A stretch of DNA of 64,000 nucleotides from Colwellia sp. Arc7-D (lineage in GTDB: Bacteria; Pseudomonadota; Gammaproteobacteria; Enterobacterales; Alteromonadaceae). The DNA lies in NCBI RefSeq assembly GCF_003061515.1, contig NZ_CP028924.1:310001-374000 (forward strand), read 5' to 3'. The notes under the pieces are model-generated. The model was not told the origin of the DNA. It was given only the letters and a program-made list of their open reading frames with translations, and did no database searches. Position numbers and translations under genes: made by a program. Of this stretch, positions 35,505-44,215 are shown in pieces; position 1 is the first letter of the stretch; each line of letters starts with the position of its first letter.

Positions 35505-36824
<1,320 letters not shown>

Positions 36825-36848
36825 CTTAATCTCAACGTTTTAATCCAT

Positions 36849-36876
36849 AAAAAACCACCTTCTAGGTGGTTTTTTT
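36849..36876 (+). terminator. Rho-independent terminator of purA
   Basis: Stem AAAAAACCACCT / AGGTGGTTTTTT with loop TCT. The 50-bp repeat array begins two bases after its T-tract. Confidence 0.93.
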
Positions 36877-36877
36877 A

Positions 36878-37126
36878 TGTGCAGGACGCACGTATGTCGT
36901 GGGTGCAAGGAAGCACAGGAACGACGATGTGCAGGACGCACGTATGTCGTGGGTGCAGGAAGCACAGGAACGGCGATGTGCAGGACGCACGTATGTCGTG
37001 GGTGCAAGGAAGTACAGGAACGACGATGTGCAGGACGCACGTATGTCGTGGGTGCAAGGAAGCACAGGAACGACGATGTGCAGGACGCACGTATGTCGAG
37101 GGTGCATGGATGTACAAGAAAGGTGA
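36878..37126. repeat. Tandem array of five ~50-bp GC-rich units, stop-free in all six frames
   Basis: Units start at 36878, 36928, 36977, 37027 and 37077 (lengths 50, 49, 50, 50, 50). Each begins TGTGCAGGACGCACGTATGT and ends AGGAACGACGA. Units 1-4 differ by one to three positions; unit 5 is diverged in its second half. A decayed piece (ACAAGAACGACACTATACAGG) recurs at 37164-37184. The unit is 58% G+C, far above its surroundings, and contains no stop triplet on either strand, so long overlapping open frames run through it. There is short self-complementarity (GCACA ... TGTGC; GCAC ... GTGC). There are no unique spacers, so it is not a CRISPR array. The nature is unknown; it may be an intergenic repeat family found elsewhere in the genome. 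Confidence 0.95.
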
Positions 37127-37405
37127 TGTAAAGGGTATACCTATATAGTTAATACATAGATAGACAAGAACGACACTATACAGGCGTAACCAGTCATACC
37201 AGCCTCAAAGTTATTTATGGCTACCCAAGCCTTAAACTGAATGTGCATTCATTTAATGAGATACACACCACGTAAATATAAAGTTTAAGTAGTATATTTC
37301 TAAGAAATATAGCTACAAACACATTGAGCTAACTAAAATATAACTTTGCAAAATAATATCCCTACCTCAAGTATTCTAGCTTCAAAATAAAAAATATTTC
37401 ATCAG

Positions 37406-37619
37406 GTTAACCAGTGGTGATGTGTGCTAAAATCAGCGCGAGTTAACATAATCAGCTATTCAGAAGTTAACTTAGGCTAAATTCTGGTATTGAACCTGAA
37501 ATAATACAAAAACATATAGATTTACATATAAAACAGTTAACTTGCACTCATAGCTGCCTTTTAAGGGAGATATCATTTGATAAGACGCTCTAAGTGCTAT
37601 TTTTCTATGAATAGTTAAC
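37406..37619. promoter_or_regulatory. Cluster of five GTTAAC palindromes
   Basis: GTTAAC occurs at 37406, 37442, 37466, 37536 and 37614; four have A before the G (AGTTAAC). At this base composition about one per 3 kb is expected, so five in 214 bp is notable. Spacings are 36, 24, 70 and 78. A regulator of the downstream malic enzyme could bind them. Confidence 0.4.
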
Positions 37620-37626
37620 TATATAT

Positions 37627-37640
37627 GTTGAATATTCAAC
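37627..37640. repeat. 14-bp perfect palindrome GTTGAATATTCAAC
   Basis: Perfect dyad 174 bases upstream of the malic enzyme start. It is not an ArgR box (the half-sites have no spacer). Possibly an operator. Confidence 0.35.
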
Positions 37641-37667
37641 TTAGTTATATGAAAAATAAATTATTTA

Positions 37668-37688
37668 AAGCTATATTAATTATAGCTT
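37668..37688. repeat. Inverted repeat AAGCTATA / TATAGCTT
   Basis: 8-bp perfect arms around TTAAT, about 125 bases upstream of the malic enzyme start; no U-tract. Confidence 0.4.
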
Positions 37689-37813
37689 GTAGCTAATTAA
37701 TATATACAAAATAGCTTGAAATTAGCCAACGCATTGCAATAGTATATTAAGTGACATTACTAAAAAAAAACAACCATAGACTCTCGCATCAGACGCATAC
37801 ATTAGGAATTAAC

Positions 37814-39055
37814 ATGACAGATCTTAGACAACAAGCACTGGATTATCACCAATACCCAACTCCAGGTAAAATTAGTGTTGAATTAACTACCCCGGCTGAG
37901 ACCAGCCAAGATCTATCACTCGCTTATAGTCCTGGTGTTGCTGAACCTGTTCGTGCTATTGCTGAGAACCCTGACGATGTCTATAAATATACCGGTAAAG
38001 GTAATACGGTTGCTGTTATTACTAACGGTACAGCAATTTTAGGTCTAGGTAACTTAGGTCCAATGGCCGCTAAACCGGTGATGGAAGGTAAAGCATTATT
38101 ATTTAAACGTTTTGCCGGTATTAATTCTTTTGATATTGAAGTAAAACACAAAACGGTTGAAGACTTTATTAGCACAGTAGCAAATATCGCTGACAGCTTT
38201 GGTGGTATTAACTTAGAAGACATTAAAGCACCTGAATGTTTTGTCATTGAAAAAGCGTTAATTGAACGTTGTAAAGTACCCGTGTTTCACGATGACCAAC
38301 ATGGTACTGCTATTGTCACCGCAGCAGGTATGATCAACGCGTTAGAAATTCAAGGTAAAGAACTGCGACACGCTAACATTGTTTGTATGGGCGCAGGTGC
38401 GGCAGCAATTGCTTGTATGGAGCTGTTGATTAAATGTGGCGCACAACGTGAAAAAATTTATATGCTCGACACGAAAGGCGTTATTCATACCCGTCGTGAC
38501 GATTTAAATGAATATAAAAAATTATTTGCTAATAATACCGATAAACGCACTTTAGTAGAAGCTATTGATGGTGCAGACGTATTCGTTGGCGTATCTGGCC
38601 CTAATGTATTATCGGCGGAACATGTCAAGCTGATGGCTGCTAAGCCCGTGATATTTGCTTGTTCAAACCCAGATCCTGAAATTAAGCCAGAACTTGCTTT
38701 GGCTACGCGTGATGATTTAATTATCGCTACAGGTCGTTCAGACTACCCTAACCAAGTAAACAACGTACTTTGTTTTCCATTTATTTTCCGTGGCGCTTTA
38801 GATGTACGCGCACGTACTATTAATGACGAAATGAAAATAGCCGCTGTGCATGCTATTCGTACCTTGGCGAAAGAAGTCGTGCCGGCTGAAGTGCTTGCCG
38901 CTAGTGGTACTGAAAGCTTAAGCTTCGGTAAAGATTATATTATTCCTAAGCCAATGGACTCGCGCTTACGTTCAGCTGTAGCTATTGCAGTTGCGCAAGC
39001 CGCCGTTGATTCAGGTGTTGCAGCACTAGAGATGCCTGAAAACTATAACGGTTAG
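37814..39055 (+). CDS. NAD(P)-dependent malic enzyme, short form without phosphotransacetylase domain
   Basis: 413 residues. Malic N-terminal domain with LAYSPGVAEPV (catalytic Tyr), IKAPECFVIEK (catalytic Lys and metal ligands) and FHDDQHGTAIV; NAD-binding domain with GAGAAAIA and FACSNPDPEI. It decarboxylates malate to pyruvate. At 413 residues it lacks the C-terminal PTA-like region of E. coli MaeB (about 760). The ATG at 37814 has AGGA six bases upstream. It is monocistronic with its own terminator. The long upstream region with repeated dyads suggests regulated expression. Confidence 0.92.
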   Translation: MTDLRQQALDYHQYPTPGKISVELTTPAETSQDLSLAYSPGVAEPVRAIAENPDDVYKYTGKGNTVAVITNGTAILGLGNLGPMAAKPVMEGKALLFKRFAGINSFDIEVKHKTVEDFISTVANIADSFGGINLEDIKAPECFVIEKALIERCKVPVFHDDQHGTAIVTAAGMINALEIQGKELRHANIVCMGAGAAAIACMELLIKCGAQREKIYMLDTKGVIHTRRDDLNEYKKLFANNTDKRTLVEAIDGADVFVGVSGPNVLSAEHVKLMAAKPVIFACSNPDPEIKPELALATRDDLIIATGRSDYPNQVNNVLCFPFIFRGALDVRARTINDEMKIAAVHAIRTLAKEVVPAEVLAASGTESLSFGKDYIIPKPMDSRLRSAVAIAVAQAAVDSGVAALEMPENYNG

Positions 39056-41619: not shown

Positions 41620-44127
41620 ATGATTGATCCTAATGTAGCGGAAACGCCTAATTCGGCAAATAATAAATTGGTAAAAATTGCTAGTAATGTGCATAAATTC
41701 GGAGGTAGTAGCTTAGCCACCAGTGCATGTATTGAACGTGTAGTGGATATTATTCGTCAGCATTGCCAGATAAACGACATTGTAGTGGTATCTGCCAACG
41801 GTAGTACTACAGATGCATTGTTTGATATCTATCAGCTAGCTGTTGAACTAAAAGATGCGACGTTGCTAAGTGCTGAATACAATAAAGAAAATAATGAATT
41901 AGTAACGTTACGTGAGCAATTACTTGCCGCGCTTGCTGATTTAAATACTGTGCAAGCCACATTAATTGATGAGCTTTTAAATACCAGCAGTGCTGCCAGA
42001 CTTAATGGTTTATTAAGTGATGAAATTGCAGACAGCACAAAAAAATTAATCAATGACCCTATAAGTTATCAAAATGACTTATTAGCCTTTGGTGAAGTAT
42101 GGTCAGCACGTTTATTGTCAGCGGTATTAAGTGAAAGTGTTTGCCCAAGTTATATGTTAGATGCGAGGGATTTCTTGCTACTTCAAGATGAAAAAAATTG
42201 CACCATTGACTATAGCGTAAGTGAAACTGCATTCTCTGCGCTTCGCCAACAGAATAAATTAGTGGTTGTAACAGGCTACATCGCACGTAATAAACAACAG
42301 CAAACGTGTACATTGGGGCGTAACGGTAGTGATTATTCGGCCACAATAATGGCAGCATTGTCACAAGCGCGAAATGTTACGCTTTGGACTGATGTTGATG
42401 GTATTTATAGCGCTGATCCTCGCATTGTACCTTCAGCGAGAAAACTACACCGTTTGCCTAATGCTGTAGCTAATGAACTTGGTCGTTTGGGTAATCCTGT
42501 TTTACATGCAAAAACTTTACAACCATTAACTAGTCATAATACCCACCTACATGTTGCGAGCAGTTTTGCACCTGATATTAGCGGTAGTGAAATAGGCAAG
42601 TTTGGTCAAATAGCAAAGCAAGAGCTTTCAGTGACCAGTTTAAACGATTTAATATTAGCAAAGTCTGCTAGTTTTTTAGCCAAGTCAGGTGAGTTAGCGG
42701 TAAGTGAATTTTCACCGGTTTGTTATAACCTTGACGAAGGCTACATAGTTGTACCACAGGCACAACAAAAGTCGGTTAGCCAGTGGCTAGCAAGCCATGA
42801 CACAGAAGTAACCTTTAAACCAGTGGCGATTATAGCTATTGTGGGTCATAGCGTGGCAAAGCAAGGAGATATGCGCGCTAGGTTTAAAAGAGCGCTAAAA
42901 CATCAGCCTACTTTACATTTTTTACATTCTTTTAATGAACATAGTTATATTGCGATATTACCAGAGGTTTGTTCGAGTGAAGTGCTCAATAATGTTCATG
43001 CAGATATGACAAAAGACGCTAAAAATATTGCATTGGTTGTTGCTGGTTTAGGCAATGTTGGTCAACGTTTTTTAACCATGTTACCTAAACAAATTGCACG
43101 AGTTTCAGGCTTAGAAAATGTTCATTTAGTTGGCTTGGTTGGTGCCAGTAAAGCGTTAATAAATACCGATGGTATAGATGTAGCCAATGCGCTTGAACAT
43201 TATCAGCAACAAGCACAGCAATATGATAGTGAACAATTATTAGCGTGGCTAACCAGTCACCCATACGATGAATTGATTATTGTTGATATTACACCTAGTG
43301 AAGCTTTCAGCCATTTGTATCAAGAGTTTTTTACCCGTGGCATACATGTCATTGGTGCGAATAAATGGGCTGCTTCTTCAAGTACAGAAAACTATCGAAA
43401 ATTACTGATAACTGCAGAAAAAAGTAACAGTATTTGGCTTGGAAATACGACGGTTGGTGCAGGCTTACCTATTAATTCAACTATTAAAGAGCTACTTAAT
43501 AGTGGTGACAAAATTTCAGAAATCTCTGGCATATTTTCTGGTACTTTATCTTGGTTATTTCAGTATTACGATGGTTTGACACCATTTTCAACGCTGCTTA
43601 ATGACGCGTTATCACAAGGTATTACAGAGCCAGATCCACGAGAAGATTTATCAGGTAGAGATGTACAACGTAAACTCTTAATACTCGCGCGTGCTGCTGG
43701 ATTTGAGTTATCGTTAACTGATATCGATTGCCAAAGCTTAGTACCAGAGCCACTACGTGATATATCATTAGCCGAGTTTCTTACACGAACAGCTGAGCTA
43801 GACGAAATGTTTTTGTCGCGCTTAAAGCAGGCACAAGAGAAAGCTTGTGTTATTCGTTATGTAGCAAGATTTATAAGCGAAGATGATCAGGTTGTAGCTA
43901 AGGTAAGTTTGGAAGAGTTAAGTGAAACGGATGCCTTCTCGCAGTTAACACCGTGCGATAACGTATTTCAAATTAAGAGTGAGTGGTATCAGGAAAATGC
44001 GTTGATTATTCGTGGCCCAGGTGCAGGTCGTGATGTAACCGCTGGTGGCATTCATGCCGATTTGGTTACTATTTGCCAACAATTAAATCATCGTCATCAG
44101 CAAGTTAAGATCAATGGTTTAAATTGA
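41620..44127 (+). CDS. metL: Bifunctional aspartokinase/homoserine dehydrogenase II
   Basis: 835 residues (E. coli MetL 810). Aspartokinase part (about 20-330) with VHKFGGSSLA, LGRNGSDYSA and WTDVDGIYSADPR; a central ACT-type region; homoserine dehydrogenase part (about 465-835) with GLGNVGQRFL, GANKWA and GRDVQRKLLILARAAGF. It makes aspartyl phosphate and homoserine for methionine synthesis. It follows metB by 110 bases without a terminator between. The stop codon lies inside a 12-bp tandem repeat. Confidence 0.95.
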   Translation: MIDPNVAETPNSANNKLVKIASNVHKFGGSSLATSACIERVVDIIRQHCQINDIVVVSANGSTTDALFDIYQLAVELKDATLLSAEYNKENNELVTLREQLLAALADLNTVQATLIDELLNTSSAARLNGLLSDEIADSTKKLINDPISYQNDLLAFGEVWSARLLSAVLSESVCPSYMLDARDFLLLQDEKNCTIDYSVSETAFSALRQQNKLVVVTGYIARNKQQQTCTLGRNGSDYSATIMAALSQARNVTLWTDVDGIYSADPRIVPSARKLHRLPNAVANELGRLGNPVLHAKTLQPLTSHNTHLHVASSFAPDISGSEIGKFGQIAKQELSVTSLNDLILAKSASFLAKSGELAVSEFSPVCYNLDEGYIVVPQAQQKSVSQWLASHDTEVTFKPVAIIAIVGHSVAKQGDMRARFKRALKHQPTLHFLHSFNEHSYIAILPEVCSSEVLNNVHADMTKDAKNIALVVAGLGNVGQRFLTMLPKQIARVSGLENVHLVGLVGASKALINTDGIDVANALEHYQQQAQQYDSEQLLAWLTSHPYDELIIVDITPSEAFSHLYQEFFTRGIHVIGANKWAASSSTENYRKLLITAEKSNSIWLGNTTVGAGLPINSTIKELLNSGDKISEISGIFSGTLSWLFQYYDGLTPFSTLLNDALSQGITEPDPREDLSGRDVQRKLLILARAAGFELSLTDIDCQSLVPEPLRDISLAEFLTRTAELDEMFLSRLKQAQEKACVIRYVARFISEDDQVVAKVSLEELSETDAFSQLTPCDNVFQIKSEWYQENALIIRGPGAGRDVTAGGIHADLVTICQQLNHRHQQVKINGLN

Positions 44128-44151
44128 GGTTTAAGTTGAGGTTTAAATTAA
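44116..44151 (+). repeat. 12-bp tandem repeat containing the metL stop codon
   Basis: GGTTTAAATTGA, GGTTTAAGTTGA, GGTTTAAATTAA. The first ends in the metL TGA; the next two repeat an in-frame stop (TGA, TAA). Probably a small slippage duplication. Confidence 0.7.
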
Positions 44152-44215
44152 GGACTTAAATTAGAGATATAGATTAAGGATTTTAATTTTCATTCATTAC
44201 AAAACTGTTAGCGAT

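Follow-up and report, generated by a model that had tools for sequence, protein, structure and literature searches.

A folded tandem repeat behind the purA terminator of Colwellia sp. Arc7-D belongs to a widespread, terminator-associated family with possible CsrA-type hairpins

Directly behind the purA gene of Colwellia sp. Arc7-D lies a short GC-rich tandem array that raises a simple question, namely what is being preserved in it. We have analysed it within a window of 64,000 nucleotides (NZ_CP028924.1, positions 310,001 to 374,000 of the forward strand; coordinates are those of the window unless a genome is named). An earlier inspection of the letters alone (the sequence-only reading) had described a 50-bp repeat without a stop triplet on either strand, and had concluded that either its composition was imported or some selection acts on it. 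It is well supported that the array is one member of a family of short folded repeats found widely in marine and related bacteria, and selection or some mechanism keeps the single-strand fold of this family. As to what the fold serves, our preferred reading, to which we give a probability of roughly 0.45, is that of a mobile structured repeat that targets terminators and whose read-through RNA would offer hairpins of the CsrA type.

The repeat itself is beyond dispute. Tandem Repeats Finder reports a period of 50 over 36877-37110 (4.7 copies, 95% matches), and the whole array spans 36877-37125 on the plus strand as five head-to-tail units of 50, 49, 50, 50 and 50 bases (copy spacing 49, 50, 50, 50). 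The sequence-only reading had placed it at 36878..37126 with uniform units; the array is there, but it starts one base earlier and its second unit has 49 bases. Its description of the surroundings was accurate, as the GC content is 0.57 in the array and 0.58 in the unit (58%, as it had said) versus 0.38 in the window and 0.30 in 37127-37800, and the first unit base directly follows 36876, the last T of the purA terminator T-run. It had also set aside an IS and, rightly, a CRISPR, the units being head-to-tail with no unique spacers between them.

By DNA comparison the array appears to be alone in its own genome. The unit retrieved only the purA array from the complete 4.3-Mb genome, a 29-letter pattern with up to three mismatches found only the five units of the array, and an exact 27-letter pattern had no match across assembled genome contigs. 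In other genomes DNA comparison did give matches, in 8 of 97. The stems of the relatives vary and their loops are constant; we wrote a two-hairpin structure by hand and tested it by counting; 21 aligned units with this structure made up a covariance model (R1). With R1, at least 34 units at about twelve places were detected in the same genome (150 of 944 candidates scored). Of the GTDB family, R1 matches 152 of 395 genomes (32 of 52 genera), and of the order 58 of 394 (22 of 115 genera; 11 of the 58 genomes belong to the same family), copy numbers being lower bounds because 15 first-look candidates were scored per genome, out of about 500 to 2300 in the genomes listed. An exact 26-letter pattern recovered at least 118 stretches in genome contigs from several gammaproteobacterial orders; among the 80 stretches listed were Colwellia, Bowmanella, Marinobacterium, Neptunomonas, Bermanella, Sedimenticola, Marinobacter and Amphritea, together with Xanthomonadales, Woeseiaceae and one Bdellovibrionales assembly. 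The sequence-only reading had proposed that an array found only here would point to a chance local expansion; the DNA search of its own genome suggested just that, whereas the structure model finds copies in the same genome and widely among relatives. A plasmid or phage vector was discarded, as neither of the annotated plasmid and phage collections has a match to the element; five viral contigs match the pattern, of which only the junctions were inspected. Among the papers listed in an open-access library, which leaves most subscription journals outside, none has a title or opening of the abstract that speaks of a family of this kind.

Each unit is predicted to fold into two short hairpins, the stems of which vary in pairs and the loops hardly at all. 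The covariation score is 0.541 for a set of 108 distinct units at 97 loci, versus 0.164 for shuffles, none of 500 reaching the observed value, and at most 0.105 for slid structures; for this set 150 out of 203 matches were aligned, and one locus (L032) duplicates a site that went into the model. Almost all these units lie outside the set from which R1 was built. In the same set 302 cells are changed on both sides, double changes occur in ten of thirteen pairs, the number of pair types was reached by 23 of 500 shuffles, and 98.2% of cells are paired, a percentage inflated by the alignment having been fitted to the model. The 21-unit alignment gives a similar score (0.481 versus 0.165 for shuffles and at most 0.127 for slid controls). 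A profile alignment made with no structure at all (271 matches, 197 distinct, 145 near-full) has stem columns 30 and 39 nearly random, at 0.12 bit each, and yet these form Watson-Crick pairs in 142 of the 145 units. Along similar lines, Watson-Crick pairs make up 840 of the 871 lettered cells in another 69 units, found class-wide (157 matches, 123 distinct, 83 near-full, 69 of them new).

The stop-free property, in turn, is incidental and no family trait. The circular unit is indeed free of stops on both strands, although the interval first given for the array is not, having a TGA at 37124. Such a 50-mer is unlikely in AT-rich DNA, as had been argued (216 of 63950 in the window, the array itself counted in), but less so for the composition of the unit, since 1.9% of the shuffles of the window unit are stop-free on both strands; for composition-matched shuffles of family units the figure is 0.9%. 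Of the 145 distinct near-full units, only 12 have neither strand interrupted by a stop, the plus strand being open in 26 and the minus strand in 25, so that open frames are not what is preserved. Imported composition and selection, offered as alternatives, thus both hold in an unforeseen way, with a dispersed family that varies among lineages and whose fold, not its open frames, is kept. That the array is a chance local expansion, or a coding sequence selected for openness in six frames, would agree with its single appearance in the DNA search of its own genome. This explanation, to which we give next to no credence, is already refuted by the family-wide data: the structure profile reveals a covarying family in many genera, stops are common in the relatives, and no Pfam family is matched at E 0.01 by the two open reading frame (ORF) translations that cross the array.

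The second property of the family is its position. From 165 arrays, 152 of them distinct, we kept 127 with a complete unit start, a score of at least 30 and 50 bases upstream. A T-run ends at the junction in 104 of these, versus 117 of 2540 random positions of the same loci, and a T-run plus a hairpin of at least 5 bp precedes 100, versus 23 of 2540 (0.9%). At these terminator arrays the first unit abuts the intrinsic terminator to the base and in the terminator's own orientation. The finding is not circular, because neither R1 nor the pattern contains a T-run. The 100 upstream sequences fall into 87 clusters and are therefore mostly different terminators. Class-wide, 88 of 117 first units follow a T-run, 71 of them with a hairpin (140 units less 23 that are not first units); when the 12 that overlap earlier arrays are left out the values are 78 and 61 of 105, with both features at 0.8% of random positions. 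In 91 of the 100 terminator arrays the upstream gene lies on the same strand, its stop codon a median of 56 bases from the array, and in 8 it lies on the other strand; 10 of the 100 fall within an ORF (crude ORF caller). ATG comes next after 71 of the 100 arrays, and in 47 the sequence past the last full unit fits at least the 8 first bases of a new unit.

This junction could be kept by selection if the hairpins were a part of the terminator that blocks read-through or convergent transcription. Its exactness and orientation, and the convergent gene downstream of 46 of the 100 arrays, would suit such a role, but 39 of the 100 lie between co-directional genes, some copies are within coding DNA or rRNA spacers, and the same terminators occur without a full unit in 14 of 17 and 14 of 16 genomes, so we regard it as hardly probable. 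Group IIC introns, according to the accessible part of PMC4424553, insert at intrinsic terminators, and a non-autonomous retro-element borrowing their reverse transcriptase, with the unit RNA copied into the same type of target, would produce the hairpin-T-run^A junction and place the element in the terminator's orientation. The 51-base unit has no intron-like domains, however, and the T-run side is complete while the far side varies (arrays with incomplete starts having been left out), the opposite of 5' truncation. Target-primed copying is expected to give 5' truncation. We consider this explanation improbable. Targeted insertion, beyond selection, probably creates the junction.

Comparison of the same sites between genomes also reveals turnover. 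The purA site is filled in three of 17 genomes of the genus (with five, two and one units and different stems), holds a possible remnant in one and is empty in 13, and a second terminator site is filled in two of 16 and empty in 14. At locus L112 a duplicated terminator has its filled and empty copies side by side, and by eye these paralogous terminators fit a 51-base insert between T7 and ATG. Presence and absence at the compared sites imply that the element moves or is exchanged. A clean insertion footprint at the second site was rejected, because its two filled alleles share a different downstream stretch and this looks like allele exchange. The anatomy of the array, the terminator junction and the turnover are all well supported. 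An unrelated palindromic repeat (core GTGTATCTGACCC) is a neighbour in two genomes, at L128, which is the purA site of genome G009, and at L244, the site of the TwoAYGGAY matches of Arc7-D treated below.

A mobile repeat with a single-strand fold need not have any function as RNA. It could be a non-autonomous DNA element, REP/BIME- or IS91-like, whose hairpins an HUH transposase reads as single-stranded DNA, making contact with the GGA loops and with the linker GGTAT. Arrays do have a constant left end and a variable right end, the conserved linker suits protein contact, and copies antisense to rRNA would be harmless to such an element. Furthermore, several genomes have a transposase-like gene that is broken by the unit, always at one place, after ...FEPLDF / GATTTT (L292, L302, L303, L326, L333, L338, L355), in frame in two of them (L303, L355); this gene, which we take to be IS91-like, matches Pfam Y2_Tnp weakly, at E 0.007, below the cut-off of that family. 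On the other hand, no clear association with the element is seen for Y1 transposase genes (PF01797), which 23 of 31 carriers have and eight lack, versus 11 of 20 among the genomes with no match (p 0.22), and a REP transposase was set aside as the mobiliser for this reason. The REP foot tetranucleotide is GTAG/GGAG; it is absent here, the units beginning with ATGT, and the agreement of both loops with the CsrA consensus would be left unexplained. We hold a DNA element to be a serious possibility, if not the one that we favour.

It is the loops that suggest CsrA. In the family model both stand on four-pair stems and are near-invariant, as C-AGGA(U/C)-G in loop 1 and C-ANGGAN-G in loop 2. Among the 145 distinct units the lowest GGA column is 144 for loop 1 and 142 for loop 2, and in the class-wide set the GGA columns of loop 2 are 69, 67 and 68 of 69, though they were outside the search pattern. 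Loop 1 is a five-base AGGAN with T or C at its last position in 138 of 145; the second position of loop 2 is T in 129 of 145, but A in most units of the purA array. A third GGA, in the internal loop (GG/AGGA between the outer and the inner stem in hairpin 2 of unit 1), is not conserved, column 43 being G or A. The accessible part of PMC7652899 gives the CsrB repeat CAGGA(U/A/C)G and an ANGGAN hexaloop as CsrA/RsmE elements, and the CAGGACG of hairpin 1 in unit 1 fits the former. Both loops match published CsrA/RsmA recognition elements, which makes the unit a candidate for a CsrA site. A csrA gene is present in all 20 genomes examined, Arc7-D included. When Rfam was searched around the array at a low threshold, the CsrB model came out with the lowest E among 18 matches (36859-37153, E 0.0017, 20.2 bits), and across the genome it has two matches, one of them a six-unit array (E 2.9e-5). 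A separate CsrB candidate of this genome (2571935-2572261, minus strand) contains 17 GGA and has a terminator of its own, but likewise scores under the gathering score. In a genome from another family of the order, four overlapping or adjoining CsrB matches, also below the gathering score, lie at G059:C1:595028-595758, and two above it at 68-70 kb.

The reading that we prefer can be put together as follows. A mobile repeat of about 51 bases, structured as a single strand, would insert at the 3' edge of a terminator T-run, near hairpin-TTTTT^AT and in the terminator's direction, and local tandem expansion would then make the array. In read-through RNA each unit would supply two hairpins of the CsrA/RsmA type, which makes ten for the purA array, and a leaky terminator might in this way release a small CsrB-like decoy that titrates CsrA in a dose set by the number of units. 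The junction by itself is no argument for a function as RNA, since targeting explains it; what speaks for CsrA are the loops and the similarity to CsrB, from which titration by read-through RNA may be supposed. A bolder version, which we think unlikely, is a gammaproteobacteria-wide mobile element that plants CsrA-decoy hairpins behind terminators and so forms a distributed CsrA sponge; insertion would be targeted by the terminator, and the size of the sponge would report total read-through and be tuned by tandem copy number.

A number of results weigh against CsrA, or against parts of the proposed scheme. In the first set the wobble pairs favoured the GGA strand (G-U 29, A-C 9 by locus, p 0.002, the loci not being fully independent), but the bias was not replicated class-wide (10 to 6, p 0.45), and in unaligned class-wide slices helix 3 gave 12 to 19. 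In consequence we have weighed CsrA and the distributed sponge lower, and a DNA element higher; a single-strand fold is preserved, be it on the one strand or the other, as RNA or as DNA. The 21-unit set does not stand out from shuffles in pairs with double changes (46 of 500) or in pair types (378 of 500). Taken singly, four of the five units exceed shuffles in stability slightly or not at all (z -0.2 to -1.95), and single-unit folding energy was dropped as weak evidence. The predicted fold of the whole array pairs units together and would bury some GGA motifs, and hairpin 1 of the unit can reach six pairs (the predicted stem in unit 1 does so), more than CsrA ligands prefer, selected CsrA/RsmE ligands mostly having at most four contiguous pairs in the accessible part of PMC7652899. 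Conservation of the linker GGTAT comes close to that of the loops, which CsrA alone leaves unexplained. The CsrB score of the array, 20.2 bits, is far from the gathering score of 71, and the array is absent from the genome-wide CsrB matches at E 0.001. Its 14 GGA are within the shuffle range (mean 10.2, largest 18), hence the count was rejected as evidence. Within 36500-38000 there is no excess of promoter-like sites (7 versus 5.5 in shuffles) and no second terminator-like site, a weak negative given that the generic scan also missed the purA terminator, its rule needing the T's after the stem, whereas here they are mostly within the inverted repeat. Finally, 27 of the 127 arrays and 44 of the 105 class-wide junctions lack the T-run with hairpin, and related units lie in 23S-5S rRNA spacers, antisense to the rRNA.

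Other settings of the unit deserve mention. The rRNA-spacer unit (GTGCACGGATGCACTAATG...) occurs at four rRNA loci of Arc7-D (L080-L083) and, by eye, at one of a relative (L010). In one genus of the order (L107, L109-L111, L195, L196, L198, L203) the unit forms part of a larger conserved composite that also includes other GGA-loop hairpins, and what precedes it is no terminator but a conserved TTGCCTGCCGC-like flank. Several arrays (L009, L020, L035, L148 and others) hold a second repeat in reverse orientation, of the GTGCATGGATGCAC...TAATGCC type, so that GGA-loop hairpins lie on the opposite strand too. The features of the locus are collected in Table 1; the 64-kb window has no Rfam family at gathering scores, and at 44116-44188 contains a second tandem repeat, AT-rich and with a period of 12-13.

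Table 1. Features at the purA locus, in window coordinates; units of this array themselves contributed to building R1.
Feature	Position	Strand	Evidence and remarks
purA, adenylosuccinate synthetase, upstream gene	35526..36824	+	Pfam PF00709, E 5.5e-184; start codon not settled
purA intrinsic terminator	36849..36876	+	12-bp inverted repeat 36849-36860/36864-36875 plus T-run; in 17/17 genus genomes compared
Unit 1, 50 bases	36877..36926	+	R1 69.5 bits, E 4.1e-18
Hairpin 1 of unit 1	36879..36891	+	family stem GUGC/GCAC, loop AGGAC 36883-36887; predicted fold, covariation
Hairpin 2 of unit 1	36896..36925	+	outer stem 36896-36900/36921-36925; predicted fold, covariation
Hairpin 2 of unit 1, inner part	inner stem 36903-36906/36913-36916; hexaloop AAGGAA 36907-36912 (ANGGAN)	+	
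Unit 2, 49 bases, one A missing from loop 2	36927..36975	+	R1 62.9 bits
Unit 3	36976..37025	+	R1 66.9 bits
Unit 4	37026..37075	+	R1 69.5 bits
Unit 5, diverged, loop 2 AUGGAU, TGA 37124 at end	37076..37125	+	R1 58.9 bits
Possible decayed sixth unit	37126..37175	+	R1 10.4 bits, E 0.3; weak
Malic enzyme gene, next downstream, same strand	37814..39055	+	Pfam PF00390 and PF03949

Short dispersed repeats of bacteria rarely have a clear target rule or a candidate ligand. This family offers both, the rule being sharp (the 3' edge of intrinsic terminators) and CsrA a strong candidate for the ligand. If CsrA binds, a mobile repeat dispersed among unrelated genes would be able to titrate a global regulator; failing that, there is still a terminator-targeting element of about 51 bases to account for.

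Among known systems, the REP/BIME elements with their TnpA-REP (RAYT) transposases are alike in being short, dispersed, extragenic palindromic repeats, clustered and folded as single strands, but our repeat has no foot motif and no clear correlation with Y1 genes, and is anchored exactly to terminators. Group IIC introns share the insertion at intrinsic terminators, whereas the repeat has about 51 bases and neither ribozyme core nor reverse transcriptase. The TwoAYGGAY RNA (Rfam RF01731), proposed to bind CsrA and described with tandem GA pairs in the accessible part of PMC4333381, also has two GGA-loop hairpins, and the GR/ARGA internal loop of the repeat unit is a further point in common; the unit differs in loop 1, a pentaloop AGGAY and not AYGGAY, and neither the window nor 20 further loci match TwoAYGGAY at its gathering score (43 bits). 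TwoAYGGAY itself is matched at E 0.001 in 13 of 17 genomes of the genus, between one and three times in each; two matches are in tandem in Arc7-D (L244, G000:C1:1708912-1709410; 45.9 and 40.5 bits, the second below the gathering score), and such tandem matches, on the same strand and a few hundred bases apart, are reminiscent of cassette arrays. CsrB, CsrC and RsmZ (Rfam RF00018, clan CL00106) likewise present repeated GGA in the loops of short hairpins, with several sites per RNA, and the Pseudoalteromonas Csr small RNAs Pf2 and Pf3 were recognised, in the accessible part of PMC11882849, by GGA motifs, putative promoters and terminators. The repeat, in contrast, is a tandem unit of about 51 bases that is scattered, varies from species to species and scores far under the CsrB gathering score, and it sits behind the terminator of another gene with no promoter or terminator of its own detected. 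A parallel for RNA made in that way is found in RrA, RrB and RrF of Escherichia coli, small RNAs that, in the accessible part of PMC8144298, are made by read-through of the first rrn terminator and interact with CsrA in vitro; as far as that part goes they are three nearly identical copies between the dual terminators of rRNA operons, whereas the repeat stands at the terminators of many genes.
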